A stretch of DNA of 64,000 nt from a virus: IMG/VR virus record IMGVR_UViG_3300009130_001605, positions 1 through 64,000 of that record; one strand, given 5' to 3'. The notes under the pieces were generated by a model. That model searched no databases, was not told where the DNA came from, and was given only the letters and a program-made list of their open reading frames with translations. Position 1 is the first letter of the stretch; every line of letters begins with the position of its first letter. The position numbers and the translations under genes are program-made. Positions 328 through 52,628 of the stretch are shown one piece after another.

Positions 328-1497
328 ATGGATATTAAAACACCGTTGGTAAAGGATACAATCGATAAAAATGACACTAAAGCACTTGCTGAGTGGTTAC
401 TTACAAATCCTCGTCTTACAAAAGGGCCAGAGACATTGGCTTTCGAACAAGAGTGGTCTGAGTGGTTGGGTACAAAGTACTCAATTTTTTGTAACTCAGG
501 ATCATCAGCAAATTTATTAATGCTTTACGCATTGATTGCAGCAAAAAAACTTAAGAATCAAAAGGTGGTTGTTCCATCATTGGCATGGGCCACTGATCTT
601 GCACCAGTTGTTCAATTTGGAATGGAGCCAATTATCTGTGATATCAATACAGATAACTTGTCAGTTCATTTGGGTGATTTGGAAGAGATTTTCAAGAAAG
701 AGAGTCCTTCTGTTTTGATGTTGGTTTCTGTTTTGGGGTTAACACCAAATATGACCTACATTGTTGATTTGTGTAAAAAATATGATGTAATCTTACTAGA
801 AGATACTTGTGAATCACTTGGATCAGAACATCAAGGAAAAAAACTTGGAAACTTTGGCTTAATGTCAACATTTTCGCTTTATTTCGGACACCATTTATCC
901 ACTATAGAAGGTGGTATGGTCTGCACTAATGACGAAGAAATGTGTGAGGTTCTTAAGTCTATCAGATCTCATGGATGGGATAGAGATGCATCCGAAGAAT
1001 ACAAAAACAAATGGAGAGACAAATGGGGAACAGAAGACTTCAATGGAATGTACACATTTTATTACCCAGGCTTCAATGTTAGATCAACAGACCTGCAAGC
1101 GTTCATTGGAAGAAGACAGATTAAGAAAGCAGATGAAATTTGCAAACTTAGAAGCGATAATTTCCAAAAATACCAAGACAGAATAATTAACCCAACATGG
1201 AAACCAGCTACAATTGCTGGAGACTACACTTCAAGTTTCTGTTACCCAGTATTGTCTATTCATAGAGATAAAATTGTAGAAGAACTTAAGGCGAATGGTG
1301 TTGAGGTACGTCCATTAATTTGCGGATCTATGGCAACGCAACCTTTCTACATTGAAAGATATGGTAGAAAAGAATTAGGCAATGTAAAAAACTTCGATGA
1401 GTATGGGTTTTATGTACCAAATAATGACAAAATAACAGATGAGGAAATAACCCTTATCTGTAATATCATAAACAAATACACGAATGAGCAAAAATAA
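328..1497 (+). CDS. colD: ColD-like GDP-4-keto-6-deoxy-D-mannose 3-dehydratase (PLP-dependent, DegT fold)
   Basis: This 389-residue protein has the DegT/DnrJ/StrS aminotransferase fold: a CNSGSSANLLML cofactor-binding motif (55-66), LLEDTCESLG (156-165) and a C-terminal VRPLICG segment. At the position of the usual PLP-binding lysine it has histidine 188, in GHHLSTIEGG. ColD and the E1 dehydratases are marked by this Lys-to-His change, which turns an aminotransferase into a 3-dehydratase, and ColD is almost the same length (about 388). The expected reaction is removal of the 3-hydroxyl from GDP-4-keto-6-deoxymannose on the way to colitose-type 3,6-dideoxyhexoses. The neighbouring gene encodes the enzyme that makes this substrate. 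A plain aminotransferase is unlikely without the lysine; the exact sugar is inferred. Confidence 0.85.
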   Translation: MDIKTPLVKDTIDKNDTKALAEWLLTNPRLTKGPETLAFEQEWSEWLGTKYSIFCNSGSSANLLMLYALIAAKKLKNQKVVVPSLAWATDLAPVVQFGMEPIICDINTDNLSVHLGDLEEIFKKESPSVLMLVSVLGLTPNMTYIVDLCKKYDVILLEDTCESLGSEHQGKKLGNFGLMSTFSLYFGHHLSTIEGGMVCTNDEEMCEVLKSIRSHGWDRDASEEYKNKWRDKWGTEDFNGMYTFYYPGFNVRSTDLQAFIGRRQIKKADEICKLRSDNFQKYQDRIINPTWKPATIAGDYTSSFCYPVLSIHRDKIVEELKANGVEVRPLICGSMATQPFYIERYGRKELGNVKNFDEYGFYVPNNDKITDEEITLICNIINKYTNEQK

Positions 1498-1531
1498 AAC
1501 AGCAATAATTTTTGGTATTACAGGGCAATGA
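1484..1531 (+). pseudogene. orphaned duplicate of the gmd 5' end
   Basis: An ATG overlapping the last 14 bases of the ColD-like gene opens a 15-codon frame reading MSKNKTAIIFGITGQ and then TGA. This matches the first 18 residues of the intact gmd downstream (MDKKNKKVALLYGITGQ) and stops exactly at the GITGQ Rossmann motif. The overlap with the upstream stop looks like an original translationally coupled gmd start. The two copies differ at many bases, so the duplication is old or the copies come from different sources. Confidence 0.6.
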
Positions 1532-1538
1532 AATTTTT

Positions 1539-1749
1539 ATGGAAAATAAAAAGTGTGAATTGTGTAATAATAGTTTTGAATTTAACCCAAAACGAAAAAG
1601 AGAAAGGGAAAAAAGATTTTGTTCAATGAACTGCTCTAGATTATAAAGAGAGTTCTGTTAGATTTATGAAATGGATATGTAAAAACAGGGTTATTGCTGA
1701 TCAGTATAAGTATAAATGGGAAAGTTTTAAAAAACAGATAAATGGATAA
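1539..1749 (+). pseudogene. remnant of an HNH-type homing endonuclease inserted in gmd
   Basis: Two frames, out of phase by one base, carry parts of what looks like one protein. Frame one (1539-1646) encodes 35 residues with a CELC...FCSMNC zinc-finger pattern and a basic middle. Frame two (about 1639-1749) encodes a Trp/Lys-rich tail, ending in a TAA that overlaps the gmd start by 8 bases. Small zinc fingers of this type are common at the N-terminus of phage HNH homing endonucleases, but no HNH core is visible here. The piece lies between the two copies of the gmd start. The homing-endonuclease origin is inferred. Confidence 0.4.
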
Positions 1750-2776
1750 AAAAAATAAAAAAGTCGCACTTTTGTACGGAATTACGGGACAAGATGGAAG
1801 TCACCTAGCAGAACTACTTCTTGAAAAAGGGTATGAAGTACATGGTGTAATCCGTAGACACTCCACTATTGGTGGAACAGTTAGGGTTGATCATATTTTT
1901 GATCAGTTAAACCTTCACTACGGGGACATAACAGATCCAATGAACACTTCGAGGTTAATATCAGAGATTCAACCAGATGAGGTCTATAACCTTGCTGCAC
2001 AATCTCATGTAAAAGTTTCATTCGAACAACCTTATTATACTGGTATGGTTGATGGACTTGGAACATTAAATATTTTAGAAGCAGTTCGTATTCATGCACC
2101 TAAAGCTAAGTTTTATCAAGCATCCACTTCAGAGATGTTCGGTGGACTTTCTTACAACAGGCCAGAAAATGGATATACTGAGGAATCAGCATTTCATCCA
2201 AGGTCTCCTTACGGAGTTGCTAAGATTTATAGCTATTGGATGATTAAGAACTATCGTGAGTCATACGGTATGCATGCGAGTAATGGAATTCTATTCAATC
2301 ATGAAGGTGAAAGGAGAGGGGAAACGTTTGTAACAAGAAAGATTACAATGGCACTATCAGCTATTAAGAAAGGTAAGCAAGATGTATTAACACTAGGTAA
2401 CATGGATTCTTTGCGTGATTGGGGTTATGCAAAAGATTATGTGGAAGGTATGTGGAGAATGTTGCAACAAGATACTCCTGGGGATTATGTTCTTGCTACC
2501 AATGAAACTCACACCATCAGAGAGTTTGTCGAAGAAGCTGTTAAATACTGTGGTTGGGAAATCGAGTGGAAAGGTTCAGGTGTTGACGAGAAAGGGTATG
2601 ACAAAGAAACTGGTAAATTATTAGTAGAAGTTAATTCTAAGTATTTCAGACCTGCAGAAGTAGACTTGTTACTTGGTGACCATGGGAAAGCAAAAGAAGA
2701 ACTTGGGTGGGAACCGAAGACAAAGTTTAAAGATTTGGTTAAACTAATGATGGAACATGATTTAAACAATGTCTAA
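1742..2776 (+). CDS. gmd: GDP-mannose 4,6-dehydratase
   Basis: This 344-residue short-chain dehydrogenase/reductase converts GDP-D-mannose to GDP-4-keto-6-deoxy-D-mannose using bound NADP. Visible motifs are the nucleotide-binding GITGQDG (13-19), the active-site STSE (128-131), YGVAK (Tyr157, Lys161) and the family's NHE...RRGETFVTRKIT block (from residue 186). The length is normal for the family. It is the second gene of a pair with the ColD-like dehydratase, which uses its product. Its present start follows an inserted remnant and a duplicated 5' end, so this ATG was probably acquired when the locus was rearranged. Confidence 0.93.
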   Translation: MDKKNKKVALLYGITGQDGSHLAELLLEKGYEVHGVIRRHSTIGGTVRVDHIFDQLNLHYGDITDPMNTSRLISEIQPDEVYNLAAQSHVKVSFEQPYYTGMVDGLGTLNILEAVRIHAPKAKFYQASTSEMFGGLSYNRPENGYTEESAFHPRSPYGVAKIYSYWMIKNYRESYGMHASNGILFNHEGERRGETFVTRKITMALSAIKKGKQDVLTLGNMDSLRDWGYAKDYVEGMWRMLQQDTPGDYVLATNETHTIREFVEEAVKYCGWEIEWKGSGVDEKGYDKETGKLLVEVNSKYFRPAEVDLLLGDHGKAKEELGWEPKTKFKDLVKLMMEHDLNNV

Positions 2777-3890: not shown

Positions 3891-5453
3891 ATGAAATTTA
3901 AAGACTTAACAGAAAAGCAGAAAAAGAAGTTAGCCGAAATTTACAATTCCAAAGAGTATAGTTGGGATGTAAAAGAAGAGAAATTAGCTAAGTTTACTGG
4001 CAAGGCATCTAGGACTGCCAGAAAGTGGTGCGAGAAGTTAGGTTTAACTAATCCTAAAGAATCTAAATCACCTCAATTTGATTCTGCTGAAAAAAAGACT
4101 TTTAATAAAAAAGCAAAAAGGTTCATTATTACATGGGCACAAATGAACACCCCAATTCATAAGCAGTTTTTCGAAAACATCAAGGTTTATGCAGAAGAGA
4201 TTGGTGCAGAGATACATGTGATTGCTGGTAAGTATAACAATCCAAGATCCCTAAAGTCGGAAGGTGAAGAAGGAACTTGGGCAACAGAAGTTATGCCTTA
4301 CTTGGATGCTGGTCGCCATAATGTTCACCAACATATGACAATTATGTCTGATTATCCAATCATGCCAACTGCAACTAATCCTATGTCAGGGCTTAGAGGT
4401 GATACTGGAGACAACTCATGTATTTTTGGTCACCCAAGAGTTCAAATGGAAATGGTTCCTGTTCTTGATGGTCACGCACCGAAGATGATGTTAACAACTG
4501 GTGCTTGTACAGTTAACAACTATTCAAGGTCAAAAGCTGGTAAGAAAGGTGAATTCCACCACACTTTCGGATTTGCAATTGTTGAGATTAAAAACAAAGA
4601 CAAATTTTTCACAAGACAAGTAACTGCTACAAGTGATGGTAACTTCAACGACATTTATTACAATGTAAGTGATGGGAGTGTAACTAGAAACACAACTATC
4701 GATGCAGCTGTGTTAGGTGACATTCACTTAGGGCAAACTGATCCAGCTGTCTTAAAAGAAACGATCAAGTTATTTAAAAAACTTAAGCCAAAGCATACAA
4801 TTATTCACGATTTATTCGATGGTAGTTCAATTAACCATCATGAGTCACATGATCCAATTGCTCAATACCACAAAGAGAAAACTGACGGAAACTCTCTTAA
4901 AAAAGAGATTGACTTCATGATTAAGTGGATTGACAGAATGAGACAATACAACTTAGTTATTGTTCGAAGTAACCATGATGACTTTGTTGATCGTTGGATT
5001 AAGAAAATTGATTGGAAACAAAACATTAAGAACGCCATGGAATACATGGATTACACAAAAGTTCTTCTTACAGGTAAGGCTCCAAAAGGGATTATACCTT
5101 ATATCATCGATAAGCATTTCGATGATGTTATCACGCTAGGTAGAGACCAAGGTTTTCAAGTTAATGGATGGGAAGTTGGATATCATGGAGATCATGGTAC
5201 TGGTGGAACTAGAGGGTCACTTCAACAATACAGAACTCTTAGTACAAAAACTATTACAGGTCACTCTCATTCTCCTGGTAGGATGGATGGGTCTTTGGCA
5301 GTAGGTACATCAACCTATTTGAGAATGGGTTACAATCAAGGAGCTTCTGCATGGTTAAATTCTCATGTTATTATCCATACAGATGGGAAAGCACAACACC
5401 TTAATTTCATAGTTGATAAAAATGGTGGAGCTGAATTTACAACATTTAAATAA
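3891..5453 (+). CDS. calcineurin-like metallophosphoesterase with N-terminal helix-turn-helix-like region
   Basis: This is a 520-residue protein. Residues 1-55 are basic and helical (KASRTARKWCEKLGLT), like a small DNA-binding helix-turn-helix. Residues about 270-470 carry the metal ligands of a calcineurin-like phosphoesterase in order: GDIH (Asp277, His279), HDLFD (307-310), NHDD (361-364), HGDH (432-435) and GHSH (457-460). Such enzymes cleave phosphodiester or phosphomonoester bonds with two metal ions. The middle (70-260) is unassigned. Nuclease activity is plausible given the N-terminus but unproved. It is a single-gene unit with its own promoter box and a strong terminator. Confidence 0.75.
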   Translation: MKFKDLTEKQKKKLAEIYNSKEYSWDVKEEKLAKFTGKASRTARKWCEKLGLTNPKESKSPQFDSAEKKTFNKKAKRFIITWAQMNTPIHKQFFENIKVYAEEIGAEIHVIAGKYNNPRSLKSEGEEGTWATEVMPYLDAGRHNVHQHMTIMSDYPIMPTATNPMSGLRGDTGDNSCIFGHPRVQMEMVPVLDGHAPKMMLTTGACTVNNYSRSKAGKKGEFHHTFGFAIVEIKNKDKFFTRQVTATSDGNFNDIYYNVSDGSVTRNTTIDAAVLGDIHLGQTDPAVLKETIKLFKKLKPKHTIIHDLFDGSSINHHESHDPIAQYHKEKTDGNSLKKEIDFMIKWIDRMRQYNLVIVRSNHDDFVDRWIKKIDWKQNIKNAMEYMDYTKVLLTGKAPKGIIPYIIDKHFDDVITLGRDQGFQVNGWEVGYHGDHGTGGTRGSLQQYRTLSTKTITGHSHSPGRMDGSLAVGTSTYLRMGYNQGASAWLNSHVIIHTDGKAQHLNFIVDKNGGAEFTTFK

Positions 5454-7252: not shown

Positions 7253-7281
7253 TTGACTATATCTTTTCTTGTTATTACATT
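7253..7281 (+). promoter_or_regulatory. promoter, TTG-N20-TACATT type
   Basis: TTG at 7253-7255 and TACATT at 7276-7281 are 20 bases apart; the ATG of the glycosyltransferase gene is at 7311. The upstream part of this 132-base gap (7179-7250) is T-rich; a weak AAGG/CCTT hairpin near 7198-7228 may end the previous transcript. Confidence 0.6.
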
Positions 7282-7310
7282 TTAATCATATAAAAAAGAT
7301 TAAATATAAT

Positions 7311-8534
7311 ATGTCAGAAAAAGTAGAAGTAAAAGCTCCTACCACAGTAGACCCGATTCAAGCTAAGATTAGTGAGGTTGTTGGTAAATTAGAGGACAAA
7401 AGTTTCTCAATTTATTTTTACGCTCCATCACTTAACTCTGCAAGTGGAGGTGTAGGTGTTTTATTCAAACAGGCCACTATCTTAAAAGAAGCTGGTTACA
7501 ACGTAAAGGTTATTTTTGAACCTAAGGTTAACGAAAGAGCGTCTTACGATGCATCGATGAAATCTAAGAAAAGGATTTTTGTATATGATGAATTTAATCC
7601 ATCTTGGTTAGATTTTGATATTTCTGATCTTGAAATTTTACCACAAGTTGGTGCTGATGAAACTGGTAAGCCAGTTGACAAAATTATTTTCATAAACGAA
7701 GAAGGAAATACTTCTGAGCAAGATGTTAAGCAGATTGAGATTAACACTGAAGATATGATAATCATACCTGAGGGTTTCCCAAACATCATGCAACAATTAG
7801 CAGGTAGTCCATGTAAGAAAATAGTTCTTGCTCAAAGCTGGATTTATGTTCTTAATTCATTACAGCCAGGTCAAACTTGGCAGTCATACGGAATTAGTGA
7901 TGTAATCTCTATTTCTGATGCAATTACTGAATATTTACACTCTGTTATGCCAGGATTAAATGTTAAACAATACAGTCAAAGTATCAACAGAGACTTGTTT
8001 AATGTTCCTAAATTAAGCGACAAAGCTCCAATGATTGCTTTCTCTTGTTCAAGAGGGCCAGAGAACAGGATGAAAACTTACAATGTTATCAGAAACTTCC
8101 AACAATGGCACCCAAAAAATAAATTTGTAAGATTTATGGAATTAGGTGGTCTTTCGAGAGAGGAATATGCGGAGAGGCTTAAAAGTTGCTCTATCGCACT
8201 TTACACTGATGAAATTGCAGGATTTGGAACAGCACCATTAGAAGCAATGGCATGTGGAACACACGTTGTTGGTTGGACTCCTCATGGAGGAAAAGAATAT
8301 ATGGGTGAAAACGGTTTCTGGGCAACAAATGGAGACATTTTCCACTTGTCAGAATATTTAGGTATTGCAGTTGATAAATTACTTAACGGTGAGTTAGACA
8401 ACCCTGAGCTTAAAGAAGCTTACGAAAGCACTTTGAGTAGATATACTGTTGAAAAAGAAAAGGAATCAGTTTTGAACATTTTTGATAAATACGTAGAAGA
8501 AAGAATAGATGAAATTAAAGGAATTCAAAAATAA
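7311..8534 (+). CDS. GT-B glycosyltransferase, family 4-like
   Basis: This 407-residue protein has a GT-B fold with a GGVGVLF glycine loop (about 46-52) and the C-terminal donor-site block AGFGTAPLEAMACG (303-316). In the family's E-x7-E motif the second glutamate is present (Glu311) but the first position is Ala303, so activity is uncertain. ATG 7311 is chosen over a TTG 42 bases upstream because its protein starts without a low-complexity extension and it lies at a normal distance from the promoter. It shares a 26-base overlap with the next glycosyltransferase-like gene. It may glycosylate virion proteins, DNA or host surface sugars; the target is unknown. Confidence 0.82.
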   Translation: MSEKVEVKAPTTVDPIQAKISEVVGKLEDKSFSIYFYAPSLNSASGGVGVLFKQATILKEAGYNVKVIFEPKVNERASYDASMKSKKRIFVYDEFNPSWLDFDISDLEILPQVGADETGKPVDKIIFINEEGNTSEQDVKQIEINTEDMIIIPEGFPNIMQQLAGSPCKKIVLAQSWIYVLNSLQPGQTWQSYGISDVISISDAITEYLHSVMPGLNVKQYSQSINRDLFNVPKLSDKAPMIAFSCSRGPENRMKTYNVIRNFQQWHPKNKFVRFMELGGLSREEYAERLKSCSIALYTDEIAGFGTAPLEAMACGTHVVGWTPHGGKEYMGENGFWATNGDIFHLSEYLGIAVDKLLNGELDNPELKEAYESTLSRYTVEKEKESVLNIFDKYVEERIDEIKGIQK

Positions 8535-9450
8535 TAAGACCCTAGTCTCACTATATGTAGATTCAGAAGGTCTAGCGAGTAAGAAAAATTTTAACAACTG
8601 TATTTACAGTATCACTAAACAAAAAACACCAGTTGACTTGGTGATTTTTCAAAACAGTTTATCGGATTCTGAAGTTGTTGAACTTGAAAAAATCTTAAAA
8701 GACCCATTGTTAACTACGCTTAAAGTTGACGAAGAGGGTAAGGCTATTACAGAGGAAAATAAACTTGAAAAAGATGATTCTCCAGTTAACTATACGATAG
8801 TTAAAACAGAAGCTAAAAACTTCTCCGAGTTATTCAATTTAGGATTTAATTATGCAGCTGCAAACGGTTATGAGTTTTACTTAACTATCGAGCAAGATGA
8901 TTTATTTTCAATCCACTGGATAGAATATGCAGAGCAGTTTGCATCAGAAGAAGAAAACAACGATGTTTTCCTTCCTTTAATCAGACACACAATGAACGGT
9001 CAATTCCACAGTCTTATTAATGAGGCAAGTTGGGTTGAAGGAATGTCTGAGGAAGCTGGTATCACTGATATCAACTTGCTTCTTAAATTTAACTCTATTA
9101 ATCCTTTGGGAGCGGTATTCAGAGTTGAGTCTATCAAAGAAAGCAGTGAAGAAATCGATGGTTTGTATCTTCCAATGAAAGAAAGTATGAAAATCACTCA
9201 TTCATATGAGTTCTTTTTAAGAATGATCTATGATGATTTGAAAGTAAAAACTGTTCCAAGAGTAGGTTATGAGCTTCAAGTGTTCCCTAAGGAATCATTC
9301 AGTGAAGCTTCTTCAAAAATACCGCCAAATTTAAATAGCATACCTGCAGAAAAAGGTGGGATGTCTCAAGAAGAGATTCAATTCTATGTTGATTCAGCTA
9401 AGAAAGAGTATTTCTTCGAAAATGATAGGAAATTACAATTCAAAGGTTAA
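8509..9450 (+). CDS. GT-A-like glycosyltransferase (putative)
   Basis: This 313-residue protein starts inside the end of the upstream glycosyltransferase gene (26-base overlap). The first half alternates strands and helices as in GT-A enzymes, and EQDD (128-131) lies after a hydrophobic strand, where the metal-binding DXD motif is expected. The C-terminal half has HSYEFFLRMIYDD (190-202), as in acceptor-site helices. The assignment is by layout and motif, not a strong family match. Pairing with a family 4-like enzyme suggests that both act on the same glycan. Confidence 0.6.
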   Translation: MKLKEFKNNKTLVSLYVDSEGLASKKNFNNCIYSITKQKTPVDLVIFQNSLSDSEVVELEKILKDPLLTTLKVDEEGKAITEENKLEKDDSPVNYTIVKTEAKNFSELFNLGFNYAAANGYEFYLTIEQDDLFSIHWIEYAEQFASEEENNDVFLPLIRHTMNGQFHSLINEASWVEGMSEEAGITDINLLLKFNSINPLGAVFRVESIKESSEEIDGLYLPMKESMKITHSYEFFLRMIYDDLKVKTVPRVGYELQVFPKESFSEASSKIPPNLNSIPAEKGGMSQEEIQFYVDSAKKEYFFENDRKLQFKG

Positions 9451-9461
9451 GGCTGAGTATC

Positions 9462-10403
9462 ATGGTAGAAGAAGAAAATTTACTACCAGGTAATCAATAC
9501 GATAATTCAAGTCAACATCAGGAGTATCCTGATGTTGACAATGATGAAACTTTCACAAAAGATGAAAAAGAAAAGGAATTTTTAAATCAATTCCATTTCA
9601 AAAATGACCAGAAAGTATACTGGGGAAAAGAGCAAGAAGTTGCTGTTGAGGACTATCTAAGAATGAGTGAAGTTTGGCTTGAAAACAGGATCAAATGGGA
9701 ACTCAAGGAAGCAAAAGAAGGTAAGAGGGAAACTGATTGGGATCTCATTTTATCTATCGAGGATTTAATTGAAAAATCGAAAGACCCTGAAGTAAAAATA
9801 AAAAGAGAAAAACTCTTTAGAGACAAAATTGATAAGCCATTAAGCAAGTTGGTGGAAAACATTGTTTTTTCTTATAAATTGTTTAGAGGTGATATTGATG
9901 TGAAAAGTCTGCAATGGGATTGCCTAGGGTTTTTAATGGAGAAGTTTGCGAACTTCAAACCATCAAAAGGGAAAAGGTCATTCTCTTATTACGGGACTGT
10001 TGTAAAACACTATTTGATTGGTGAGAAAAAAGACAACTACAAATCTCAAACTAATAATCTTGAATACGAATCTTTTAGAGAGGAAGTAAACAATAGGAAT
10101 AAGTATGAGCTTGGAGATCGAGATCCTTTGGAAGAATCAGCAAGGTTATTTGATCACATTGTTAGTGAGATAAAAATAGAACTTGTTAACACAGAAATGT
10201 CGGATAACGACAGAAATGTTGGTAATGCTATTGTAAACATTTTTGAGAGACACGAAGAAACTAATATTTACAAAAAGAACAATCTTTACAAGCTAATAAA
10301 GGAATATACTGGATTAGAAACAAAGGATATAACTTATTCACTAAACAGGTTTAAAACCTTATATAAACTTAGAAAACAATCCTTTATTACAGATGATGAT
10401 TAG
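9462..10403 (+). CDS. gp55-like late sigma factor (putative)
   Basis: This 313-residue protein has a charged N-terminal half and a central block: LQWDCLGFLMEKFANF (150-165), then KGKRSFSYYGTVVKHYLI (169-186). The block matches the sigma region 2 pattern of phage late sigma factors (T4 gp55 family), where an F-x-Y-F/Y segment precedes a helix that binds the -10 element. Residues 255-300 are helical and could act as a region 4-like module. It stands first in the run of virion genes, whose promoters share the TATTTATnA motif. A perfect inverted repeat lies in codons 17-26. Confidence 0.6.
   Translation: MVEEENLLPGNQYDNSSQHQEYPDVDNDETFTKDEKEKEFLNQFHFKNDQKVYWGKEQEVAVEDYLRMSEVWLENRIKWELKEAKEGKRETDWDLILSIEDLIEKSKDPEVKIKREKLFRDKIDKPLSKLVENIVFSYKLFRGDIDVKSLQWDCLGFLMEKFANFKPSKGKRSFSYYGTVVKHYLIGEKKDNYKSQTNNLEYESFREEVNNRNKYELGDRDPLEESARLFDHIVSEIKIELVNTEMSDNDRNVGNAIVNIFERHEETNIYKKNNLYKLIKEYTGLETKDITYSLNRFKTLYKLRKQSFITDDD
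9511..9539 (+). repeat. perfect 13-base inverted repeat in the sigma-like gene
   Basis: GTCAACATCAGGA at 9511-9523 and its exact complement at 9527-9539 are separated by GTA. The hairpin lies 50 bases inside the coding sequence and has no T run, so it is not a normal terminator. It could fold in the mRNA near the start codon. Confidence 0.85.
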
Positions 10404-49619: not shown

Positions 49620-52600
49620 ATGGCAAAAAGGAAAAAAAGCAATAAACCTGTACAAAAGGTTGAGATAAGACGACTGAGAGGTGGTACTAACTACCGCTTT
49701 ACATATGACTACATACCAATGCTAAACGCATACATTAAAGGCAATTTGCCTCGTGAACACTGGAAAGTTCATGTTGAGAATGTGTATGATCCGATAGCTA
49801 AACAACCAAAAGACGTTTGGTCTAGAGACGTTAGGGAGTTTTCTGTTGGTAAAGTAATTGCTTTCCTTGTTGATAATGGAATTAAATTCGACTTCATCAA
49901 TATGACTGAAGGTGAAATTAACGTTCTTCGTAAAGAATTTAGAGAAAGACAAATGAGGATGAAACAGATCCTTAAAGAAAAAGCTGATGGTCTTGATGTG
50001 ACAGGTATGGATTTTAGTTATATGACAATGCAGCCATATGACTACCAAAAGAAAGCAGTTAAGTTTTTTGAGCTGAATGAAGGAAATGTTATTTTAGCCG
50101 ACCAACCAGGTGTTGGGAAACAAGCAGGTTTAGACACTCTCATTTCTACTCCAAATGGATGGAAAAGAATGGGAGATATGGAAGTTGGTGATAGAATACA
50201 CAACAGGTTTGGAAGTGTTTCAAATGTAAAAGGTGTGTATCCTCAAGGATACAAGGATTCTTATAAAATAACATTCAATGATGGTTCTCACACTTTCTGT
50301 GGATTAGAACACTTATGGACTGTTAGAGATAAAAACAGAAGGAAAAGAAACAAAGGGTGGGTCGTTAAATCTTTAAAAGAATTATTAGACTCAGGACTTG
50401 AATATGGAATGTCACCAAACGGATCTAATTCAAATAGAAAACCTGCTTTAAAATGGGAGATTCCAGTTACTGAACCTGTTTATTTTGACGACAAGGAATA
50501 TTATATTAGCCCATATCTACTAGGAGCATTAATCGGTTGCGGTTGCACATGCGTTAAATTAAACATGTATTTAACTGTACCAGACTTTCAAATAGAAATT
50601 GCAAACAAAGCAGAGAGTTTGTTGCCAGAAGGATATGGATTTAGTGTTAACAGAAGCCCTAAACGTCCACACTATAACATTGTTAAAGACAAAAACGCAA
50701 AAACGCTTGAAAACAGAGTTGTAACATACATAAGAAGACTTGGCCTTGATGTTAAATCTAGTGATAAATTTATACCACAAGAATACATGATAGGATCTGT
50801 TTATCAGAGAATTGAGTTGTTACGTGGATTGATGGACACTGATGGTAGTTGTTTGAAAAACAGAAGTAATTACCACACCACTTCAGAAAAGTTGGCAAAA
50901 GATGTTGTTGAACTAGTTCAATCACTTGGTGGCATTGCAAAAATAAACATCTACGATAGATCTCATGAAGACAAATCTACTGAATACATAGTTAATATTA
51001 AAACTAACTTCTGCCCTTTTTCTTTGAGTGAAAAAGTGAACGAATGGAAGTCTGTGAAGTCTAATAAAATATCACGTTACATTAAAAGTGTGGAATTGTT
51101 CAAACAAGAAGAACAACAGTGTATTGCAACAGATGCACCAGATCACACTTATTTAACGGATCAATACATTGTTACACATAACACATTGCCTCCTTTTTCA
51201 TATGCATACAAGCATAATCTTAAGACGTTAATCGTTTGCCCATCTTCTCTTAAACTAAATTGGAAAAGAGAGATTGATAGCTTTCTTAAACAGCATTCTT
51301 TTGTTTACAAATATGCTCCACCAAAAAGGAGTAATAATGTAAATCATCCAAAAGAATATTGTAACTTCCATATAATCAATTACGAATCTCTTGAGACATA
51401 TTTCAAATATGAATTTAGTCACAAGTGTTCTTCTCCAAACTGTAAATTTAAAGCAGTTGATCTTGAGAAGGGTTATAAGAAATGTCCTTTGTGTGCCACT
51501 CCTAAGAGTGTCAAGTCAAGAAGGGTTAATATTCTTGAATTCGAAGACAAGCAAGGTATGACATTAAATCCAGAGGATTATGATTTGATTATTCTTGACG
51601 AATGCCATTACATCAAAAACGAGGCTGCACAAAGAACAAAGATTATCAAAAAGGTCTTTAAAGACATTCCAAAAAAAATACTTATTTCTGGCACACCAAT
51701 CAAAAGTAGACCAATGGAGTTTTTCTCAATATTAAACTTCCTTAGACCTGAAGAGTTCAATAGCTCTCATGAGTTCGGGAAAAGATATGGAGCAGGATTT
51801 CAAGATAACTTCGGTTGGAAATATGACGGAGCATCAAACCTTGAAGAATTGTTTGAGAGAGTTCAGCCATATTTTTTAAGAAGATTGAAAAGCGATGTGC
51901 TAGAACTTCCACCTAAGACTTTTGTAAACATTCCTATCGAGCTTACAAATAAGCAGATGAAGGATTACGGGAAAGTTGAAGAAGGTGTTGTTGAACAACT
52001 TGAAGGAGAAGATAATTCTGGTGAGAAAAAATCAGCACTTGAAATCATTCTTGAATTGAAGAGGTACGTTTCAACAATAAAAGTGAAAGAATCAATTCCG
52101 ATTATCAAGGATATTATTGAACAAGGTGAAAAGATTGTTGTATTCTCCGAGTTCCAAGATACAGCAGAGGCAATTAGAGATGCATTCGCTGGACAATCCG
52201 TTATGATACATGGTTCTGTTGGAACTGAAGAAAGAGATCAGGCTGTTCAACAGTTTCAAGACCCGAAAAGTGATATAAAGGTTTTCTCTGGAACAATCGG
52301 TGCTGCAGGAGTTGGGCTTACGCTTACTCGTGCAAGTAATTTAATTTTTATCGGTTCAGCATGGACAAGTGGAGATATGGAACAAGCAGAAGATAGGGTT
52401 CACAGAGCCTCAACAACAGCAAGTAAAGTAACAATTATGACGCTTTATTGTGAGAACACAGTTGACGAATATATTATGCAACTACTTCAGGATAAGGCAC
52501 AAGTGGTTTCGAAAGCACTTGATAATAAAGTAGCAAACAAAACTGTAAATCAAACCGACTCTTTGAGTCAAGAGACAAGCAACATGAGTATTGTTGGAGC

Positions 52601-52628
52601 ATTAGTTGCAAGACTAACAGGAAACTGA
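49620..52628 (+). CDS. SNF2-family DNA helicase/translocase containing an intein
   Basis: The 1002-residue precursor contains a 648-residue SNF2 helicase split by a 354-residue intein (168-521). The host protein has Walker A QPGVGK|T (the intein sits between Lys and Thr), the DECH box (660-663), a zinc-finger-like CSSPNCKFK...KCPLC (about 602-625) between the lobes, and motif VI QAEDRVHRAS. The second RecA lobe ends in TLYCENTVDEYI, as in SMARCAL1/Rad54-like enzymes. It remodels replication forks or DNA-protein complexes. Splicing is needed to rebuild Walker A, so activity depends on it. Confidence 0.85.
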   Translation: MAKRKKSNKPVQKVEIRRLRGGTNYRFTYDYIPMLNAYIKGNLPREHWKVHVENVYDPIAKQPKDVWSRDVREFSVGKVIAFLVDNGIKFDFINMTEGEINVLRKEFRERQMRMKQILKEKADGLDVTGMDFSYMTMQPYDYQKKAVKFFELNEGNVILADQPGVGKQAGLDTLISTPNGWKRMGDMEVGDRIHNRFGSVSNVKGVYPQGYKDSYKITFNDGSHTFCGLEHLWTVRDKNRRKRNKGWVVKSLKELLDSGLEYGMSPNGSNSNRKPALKWEIPVTEPVYFDDKEYYISPYLLGALIGCGCTCVKLNMYLTVPDFQIEIANKAESLLPEGYGFSVNRSPKRPHYNIVKDKNAKTLENRVVTYIRRLGLDVKSSDKFIPQEYMIGSVYQRIELLRGLMDTDGSCLKNRSNYHTTSEKLAKDVVELVQSLGGIAKINIYDRSHEDKSTEYIVNIKTNFCPFSLSEKVNEWKSVKSNKISRYIKSVELFKQEEQQCIATDAPDHTYLTDQYIVTHNTLPPFSYAYKHNLKTLIVCPSSLKLNWKREIDSFLKQHSFVYKYAPPKRSNNVNHPKEYCNFHIINYESLETYFKYEFSHKCSSPNCKFKAVDLEKGYKKCPLCATPKSVKSRRVNILEFEDKQGMTLNPEDYDLIILDECHYIKNEAAQRTKIIKKVFKDIPKKILISGTPIKSRPMEFFSILNFLRPEEFNSSHEFGKRYGAGFQDNFGWKYDGASNLEELFERVQPYFLRRLKSDVLELPPKTFVNIPIELTNKQMKDYGKVEEGVVEQLEGEDNSGEKKSALEIILELKRYVSTIKVKESIPIIKDIIEQGEKIVVFSEFQDTAEAIRDAFAGQSVMIHGSVGTEERDQAVQQFQDPKSDIKVFSGTIGAAGVGLTLTRASNLIFIGSAWTSGDMEQAEDRVHRASTTASKVTIMTLYCENTVDEYIMQLLQDKAQVVSKALDNKVANKTVNQTDSLSQETSNMSIVGALVARLTGN
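50121..51182 (+). mobile_element. intein with class 3 signature and degenerate LAGLIDADG endonuclease
   Basis: The intein runs from Gln168 to Asn521. Block A is QAGLDTLIST (first residue Gln, not Cys/Ser/Ala). Block B ends EHLW, with Trp233 two places after His231. Block F holds Cys501 in CIATDAPDHTYL, and block G is IVTHN with Thr519, His520, Asn521, followed by Thr522. Trp, Cys and Thr at these sites are the WCT signature of class 3 inteins, which splice through the block F cysteine and need no N-terminal nucleophile. The first LAGLIDADG motif reads LLGALIGCG with Cys307 where Asp is catalytic; the second, LLRGLMDTDG, is intact. Confidence 0.8.

Follow-up and report, generated by a model that had tools for sequence, protein, structure and literature searches.

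Two neighbouring genes at the left end of a phage genome fragment are predicted to encode the central steps of a route to a deoxysugar donor, one that would resemble colitose synthesis. The fragment, hereafter called the window, comprises bases 1–64,000 of the linear IMG/VR virus record IMGVR_UViG_3300009130_001605 (75,938 bases). It encodes a DegT-fold protein in which His188 replaces the catalytic lysine of aminotransferases, followed by Gmd, a GDP-mannose 4,6-dehydratase. We consider it fairly probable that the pair belongs to a colitose-like route to a GDP-3,6-dideoxyhexose donor, whose sugar would be attached by transferases of the surrounding gene island to virion or host-surface glycans. 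The genes, the histidine, the synteny and the partner genes of sister phages were read directly from the DNA.

A His-type DegT protein resembling ColD

The product of the first gene matched DegT_DnrJ_EryC1 (PF01041) with 220 bits, and its His188 aligned with His188 of ColD, within FGHH in the window protein and YSHH in ColD. The common number is partly luck of numbering; the evidence lies in the alignment, where this column holds histidine in 175 of 192 rows and lysine in the other 17, which are Lys-type DegT proteins. A DegT fold with His188 at the position of the catalytic lysine, as the initial annotation had described it, was thus confirmed by Pfam and by the alignment with ColD. All 95 viral and all 80 bacterial best matches kept the histidine; the bacterial genome scan was partly seeded with a motif ending in His188, the viral scan was not, and both cover the nearest 80 only. 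For the residue counts and the tree described below, proteins of at most 330 or at least 460 amino acids were excluded, leaving 94 of the 95 viral and 73 of the 80 bacterial sequences, and the references were aligned over residues 57–402 of E1 and 5–382 of ColD.

Among solved structures, ColD was the top phmmer match (4.5e-58), and a profile of 76 sequences placed it (4.9e-96) before E1 (2.9e-69) and GDP-perosamine synthase (3.1e-57). The AlphaFold2 model of the protein was confident (predicted local distance difference test, pLDDT, 96.6) and superposed on the same three structures with Z scores of 49.0, 46.0 and 44.4, respectively, ColD ranking first by fold in both Foldseek and VIA-align. 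Nine further positions of the ColD active site were compared, and seven are the same in the window protein (W88, D159, E162, S183, H215, N248 and R250). The E1-type four-cysteine [2Fe-2S] motif was not found, the aligned region of the window protein having no cysteine, and the score against the RfbH equivalog model NF011936 (198 bits) fell below the cut-off of 423. Pairwise identities were 31% between the window protein and ColD, 30% between the window protein and E1, and 33% between ColD and E1.

A quick tree of 158 rows was built with the His column masked and with Shimodaira–Hasegawa-like approximate likelihood ratio test (SH-aLRT) values as its only support. Rows were collapsed at 80% identity, which kept 72 viral and 65 bacterial sequences, and L013, the window itself, was dropped. 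The window protein fell in a group whose 35 rows all come from phages (SH-aLRT 93), with an inner group of 29 rows at 99, and the larger group was nested in a clade of 83 rows, 64 from phages and 19 from bacteria (SH-aLRT 100). E1 clustered with the Lys-type enzymes (SH-aLRT 97), and eight further phage rows, cyanophages included, fell in another clade of 23 rows. Among the relatives kept by the scan, the nearest bacterial proteins were at most 47% identical to the window protein, while viral proteins reached 72%. The name "ColD" is too strong for a protein that shares about 31% identity with ColD and groups mostly with phage proteins, away from the ColD clade; we infer its ColD-like function from residues and fold, not from closeness. 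The earlier proposal of a ColD-type 3-dehydratase therefore holds with respect to sequence, profile, fold and active-site columns, and fails with respect to ColD proper. In sum, the protein is a predicted His-type 3-dehydratase, partly supported by sequence and model, that would work like ColD and is not its ortholog.

A recent capture of the DegT gene from a host was considered and found unsupported, its codon use ranking 10th among 35 long genes. Two other viral loci (L138 and L157) encode a second His-type DegT protein besides the ColD-like one; where E1 has its motif, this second protein shows three cysteines, and it groups with E1, so that CDP-type 3-dehydratases may occur in phages as well.

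Gmd and its junction with the DegT gene

The gene after the DegT gene had been read as gmd, and this reading stands: with 490.7 bits, its product exceeds the cut-off of 415 set for TIGR01472 (gmd), and it contains the catalytic motifs TSE and YxxxK. The two genes are separated by a 244-bp spacer that three sister phages (L014, L015 and L179) lack, their genes overlapping or lying end to end. The spacer contains a mini open reading frame (ORF; 1539–1646, 35 amino acids) with a CxxC...CxxxC pattern, perhaps the remnant of a homing endonuclease.

In two sisters, Gmd is itself split by long in-frame inserts (L015 5998–8010, the same as L216 6918–8930, and L179 6710–8953), with ORFs of 670 and 747 amino acids and insertion at two different conserved sites. 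By eye, the inserts resemble inteins that include homing-endonuclease parts. The best PDB match of the L015 insert was a bacterial intein-like domain with an E value of 0.11 only; the L015 Gmd protein had no intein match in Pfam or NCBIfam at 1e-3, and a literature search for intein, GDP-mannose and phage returned nothing related, as judged by titles.

Sister phages, the third step and the glycan island

Four sister phages (L014, L015, L099 and L179) share the gene order DegT, Gmd, anchor, gp5527, glycosyltransferase, glycosyltransferase, the anchor being a conserved phage gene at the right of the island (Table 1). L014 is a 96-kb record, and L015 (identical to L216) is a 388.6-kb record whose DegT protein is 72% identical to that of the window. 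In each of the four, the upstream stretch of about 6 kb includes genes for an Fcl-like short-chain dehydrogenase/reductase (SDR) and for a GT11 transferase, the latter cut by the contig end in L099. The Fcl-like SDR of L015 is nearest to GDP-L-fucose synthases (1.5e-63). Across 50 aligned Fcl-like SDRs, the columns of the catalytic residues of E. coli Fcl hold Ser in 42, Cys in 46, Tyr in 47, Lys in 49 and His in 46. Since the window's record begins only 327 bp upstream of the DegT gene and the reductase is present in four of four sisters, the absence of a third step is apparently due to the contig edge. The pair is therefore probably no two-step stub, its third enzyme presumably lying beyond the left record end; a reductase or epimerase, which the initial annotation had proposed to look for outside the window, was absent from the window's own record and present upstream in all four sisters. 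The two glycosyltransferase genes that it had placed about 4.5 kb after Gmd are present, the first starting 4,492 bp downstream.

The anchor gene served as a control. Scanning the viral contigs with just the anchor protein gave no relative; an alignment of three gave 368, of which 80 were kept, a list that is incomplete, as L099 is absent from it though sharing the anchor, the glycosyltransferase pair, DegT and Gmd. Of 83 anchor rows, five have Gmd, Fcl-like or GT11 genes, and all five have a strong DegT match; they represent four phages, namely the window, L014, L015/L216 (one record) and L179. The other 78 rows lack all three sugar genes, with 64 of them spanning at least 6 kb upstream; L199 and L200, both among these 78, show a weak DegT match on the other side of the anchor. 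To the left of the anchor in L265 and L266, which come from the L015 and L179 phages, runs a row of glycosyltransferase- and methyltransferase-like genes, named by eye. The last genes of this row are GT11, Fcl, DegT and Gmd in L015, and Fcl and GT11 are swapped in L179. L182 has the anchor and the glycosyltransferase pair as in the sisters, but no DegT or Gmd gene in the 9 kb upstream. The DegT–Gmd pair thus belongs to a variable, swappable glycan island of large phages.

L182 (3–7663) has other genes to the left of its anchor, which again resemble glycosyltransferase and methyltransferase genes by eye. Elsewhere, L016 6012–7520 and 12194–12937 (record positions 69011–70519 and 75193–75936) encode many SHAEG-like repeats that resemble an adhesin or tail fibre by eye.

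Distribution in viruses

The profile scan of viral contigs recovered at least 574 stretches that code for some kind of DegT relative; this total, like the 582 of the genome scan, may include Lys-type kin. By tblastn, 85 GenBank phage records matched the DegT protein, 65 of them over at least 80% of its length and all below 60% identity. His-type relatives were collected at 72 viral loci, non-redundant at 80% and including the window, some on contigs that end near the gene. Within 8 kb of these genes, an Fcl-like SDR was found at 47 loci, Gmd at 43, GT11 at 24 and GT10-type genes at 20, with Gmd and the Fcl-like SDR together at 36. Where at least 6 kb was available on both sides (47 loci), the counts were 32 for Gmd, 34 for the Fcl-like SDR and 27 for both; at the 36 loci whose protein is at least 50% identical to that of the window (window included), they were 27, 26 and 22. 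The Gmd counts take in relatives below the gmd cut-off of 415 (L097, 379.5; L100, 407.5), the Gmd-cluster member of L167 is only 30% identical to the window Gmd, and the GT10, GT11 and late-sigma clusters were each named from one representative. Viral contigs commonly carry such DegT genes close to Gmd, GenBank cyanophages already contain them, and the initial view that phages seldom keep such a path was wrong.

Proposed pathway and alternative explanations

From these genes we infer the activity, substrate, product and target of a pathway. Host GDP-mannose would be used as its feed, because no NTP_transferase domain scored above the cut-off in the window's record or in the four sister records, all of them possibly incomplete. 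Gmd would turn it into GDP-4-keto-6-deoxymannose. The DegT protein would be charged as the pyridoxamine 5'-phosphate (PMP) form by glutamate and, with His188 as acid/base, would take the hydroxyl off C3, yielding GDP-4-keto-3,6-dideoxymannose. The next enzyme, an epimerase-reductase like Fcl or ColC that is presumably encoded off the left end, would then produce GDP-L-colitose (3-deoxy-L-fucose) or a stereoisomer, and the fucosyl-type GT11 enzyme and other island transferases would attach the sugar to a virion or host-surface glycan. Judging from gene content, a GDP-3,6-dideoxyhexose of the colitose type is the likely product.

The same genes could support two branches, in which Gmd feeds Fcl for GDP-L-fucose and the His-type enzyme draws on the same intermediate, so that fucose and a 3,6-dideoxyhexose are both made. 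L014, with two different Fcl-like SDRs and a GT11 gene beside DegT and Gmd, fits such an arrangement, as does the frequency of GT10 and GT11 families near DegT genes, and gmd is reported together with a GDP-fucose synthase gene in cyanophage S-SCSM1 (PMC9602691). The records of L015 and L179, however, each show one epimerase-family gene besides Gmd, and we regard two branches as somewhat unlikely. An ordinary sugar aminotransferase of the perosamine-synthase type would have the DegT fold in common (Z about 44), but none of the 95 viral relatives has a lysine at the pyridoxal 5'-phosphate (PLP) position; against this activity and against an inactive protein alike stand codon use within the phage range (see above) and active-site columns conserved across deep divergence, which makes either very improbable. 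As to the target, a host O-antigen or capsule, altered so as to exclude rival phages, is possible, if somewhat short of probable, as against the virion or DNA; such a role has been proposed for cyanophage lipopolysaccharide genes (PMC9602691). The baseplate genes downstream of the region instead lean slightly to the virion, and the glycosyltransferase pair persists in L182 without the DegT and Gmd genes.

Several observations weigh against the colitose-like pathway. ColD and its bacterial orthologs form a separate clade of 25 rows (SH-aLRT 97) with the window protein outside, and two of the nine ColD positions checked differ, Ser187 being Gly and Phe240 being Tyr in the window protein. Gmd is absent within 8 kb at 29 of the 72 viral loci, and 14 have none of Gmd, Fcl-like SDR, GT10 or GT11. 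The window's 75.9-kb record holds no second epimerase-family gene and no GT11 gene, and the Fcl-like SDR scores below its NCBIfam cut-off (201 vs 500). Of 25 loci from bacteria of the wider clade (L017–L044), 5 have Gmd nearby and 9 an Fcl-like SDR; the corresponding numbers are 19 and 21 among 22 ColD-clade loci, and 12 and 10 among 26 other bacterial loci. The neighbours in the wider clade are a 263-amino-acid SDR (11/28), a nucleotidyltransferase (9/28) and a GHMP kinase (7/28), the best NCBIfam match of the last being the heptose kinase HddA, far below its cut-off (109.7 vs 600). Moreover, ColD-type C3-dehydratases of C. jejuni act on GDP-heptose (PMC10440746). As the bacterial neighbours point to heptose-like sugars, the substrate may vary within the group.

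The His-type clade might, on these grounds, use another nucleotide sugar such as GDP-heptose, with the proximity of Gmd reflecting a mixed sugar island only. The heptose-type partners are nevertheless scarce near viral genes (263-amino-acid SDR, 1/72; GHMP kinase, 2/72; nucleotidyltransferase, 0/72), where Gmd occurs at 43 of 72 loci, and the window Gmd is a full-scoring one; such a substrate is therefore unlikely here. In six bacterial loci (L023, L027, L030, L031, L034 and L036), ColD-like genes stand beside GHMP kinase, nucleotidyltransferase, SDR or radical-SAM-like genes, and these loci could possibly represent an unstudied deoxy-heptose path.

If the colitose-like chemistry holds, many phages make donors of 3,6-dideoxyhexoses, sugars familiar from the surface antigens of bacteria, and ColD has beside it a branch of 3-dehydratases encoded mostly by phages. 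As the closest sisters carry an apparently full set for synthesis and transfer, the glycosylation target of large phages becomes testable. A sugar path cut at a contig edge should not be taken for a two-step path. More speculatively, phages may own a distinct, old and diversified 3-dehydratase lineage whose 3-deoxygenated fucose-type donors serve as a phage-specific capping sugar; without a C3 hydroxyl, extension would be blocked, sealing virion glycans or stopping host chains. We hold this wider idea to be unlikely.

Gene layout of the record

The record derives from a tailed phage, as it encodes a baseplate wedge protein (phrog_219, 1.7e-18) and an SbcC-like protein (phrog_77, 3.5e-42). Megablast of window positions 1–25,000 against GenBank phages gave zero matches. 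The features of the region are listed in Table 1; small genes lie between Gmd and the anchor gene, and the SET-domain gene lies beside the sugar genes. The second glycosyltransferase has no Pfam match of its own; its L113 homolog matches PF00535 (2.1e-6), and its model, of middling confidence (pLDDT 69), resembles GT-A glycosyltransferases (best E value 2.6e-11). The gene bordering the region was named from its clustered homolog in L097, which matches the phrog_234 late sigma factor (9.9e-8); the window protein itself has no PHROG match, and the cluster occurs at 19 of the 72 loci.

Table 1. Features of the DegT–Gmd region, in window coordinates
Feature	Position	Strand	Basis
ColD-like DegT-fold protein with His188, predicted PMP/PLP-dependent nucleotide-sugar 3-dehydratase, 389 amino acids	328..1497	+	Pfam, alignment, tree, model
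His188 codon, residue replacing the aminotransferase lysine	889..891	+	Alignment with ColD and E1
Spacer between DegT and Gmd genes, 244 bp	1498..1741	+	
Gmd, GDP-mannose 4,6-dehydratase, 344 amino acids	1742..2776	+	TIGR01472, motifs
SET-domain protein, 97 amino acids	3501-3794		PF00856 2.8e-11; phrog_28741 3.3e-28
Conserved phage gene (phrog_1745), right-hand anchor of island	3891..5453	+	
Glycosyltransferase (Glycos_transf_1, 1.4e-8), syntenic in sister phages	7269..8534	+	
GT2/GT-A type glycosyltransferase, syntenic in sister phages	8509..9450	+	Named via homolog and model
Late-sigma-factor-like gene bordering the region	9462..10403	+	Named from clustered homolog L097

Late-promoter timing was also considered and rejected. 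Of 65 genes, 4 have the motif TATAAATA in the 120 nt before them, against a mean of 2.4 and a maximum of 7 in 200 shuffles; its placement is uninformative on the time of expression, and the near match TATAAATG upstream of Gmd is no evidence. Further along the window, 49620–52628 encodes a protein of 1002 amino acids in which residues 148–522 resemble the large-terminase profile phrog_19299 and residues 533–982 the DNA helicase phrog_62. The record behind L182 (G004) has a 664-amino-acid version that matches residues 3–168 and 522–978 only, and the terminase-like part seems to be absent from it.

Comparison with known systems

No paper describing a ColD-type dehydratase in phages was found, judged by titles and the beginnings of abstracts, in a search that left subscription literature mostly uncovered. 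E1/RfbH and SpnQ resemble the window protein in having His for Lys and in C3 deoxygenation, and they differ in their [2Fe-2S] cluster on four cysteines, a motif absent from the window protein; the review PMC8987622 ranks the replacement of Lys by His first among the differences from aminotransferases and describes ColD as being without the cluster of E1 and SpnQ. The GDP-heptose C3-dehydratases of C. jejuni (HS:5 and HS:11) likewise perform PLP-dependent C3 deoxygenation of a GDP-4-keto-6-deoxy sugar; at 62–67% identity to ColD (PMC10440746), they are by that figure far closer to it than the phage protein is.

Synechococcus phages ACG-2014f and S-CAM7 carry gmd, an Fcl-like epimerase gene and a DegT gene in a row, followed by glycosyltransferase genes. 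Their DegT proteins are 32–36% identical to that of the window and belong to a different clade (23 rows, 8 from phages); GenBank labels them aminotransferase or hypothetical, with two S-CAM7 records naming a putative CDP-4-keto-6-deoxy-D-glucose-3-dehydrase.

ColD itself, the GDP-4-keto-6-deoxy-D-mannose 3-dehydratase (E. coli WbdK; PDB 2gms, 3b8x, 2r0t and 3gr9), agrees with the window protein in fold, in His188, in most residues checked, in lacking an iron–sulfur motif and in having Gmd as a partner. It differs in its sequence (about 31% identity), in Ser187 and Phe240 (Gly and Tyr in the window protein), in standing apart from the mostly phage clade and in its setting, which is an O-antigen operon for ColD and a phage glycan island for the window gene. 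The colitose cassette gmd-colC-colD is matched in the sister phages by the grouping of Gmd, a His-type DegT protein, an Fcl-like SDR and GT11, the family of the colitosyltransferase; unlike that cassette, the phage set has extra phage glycosyltransferases, and its product is a predicted one.

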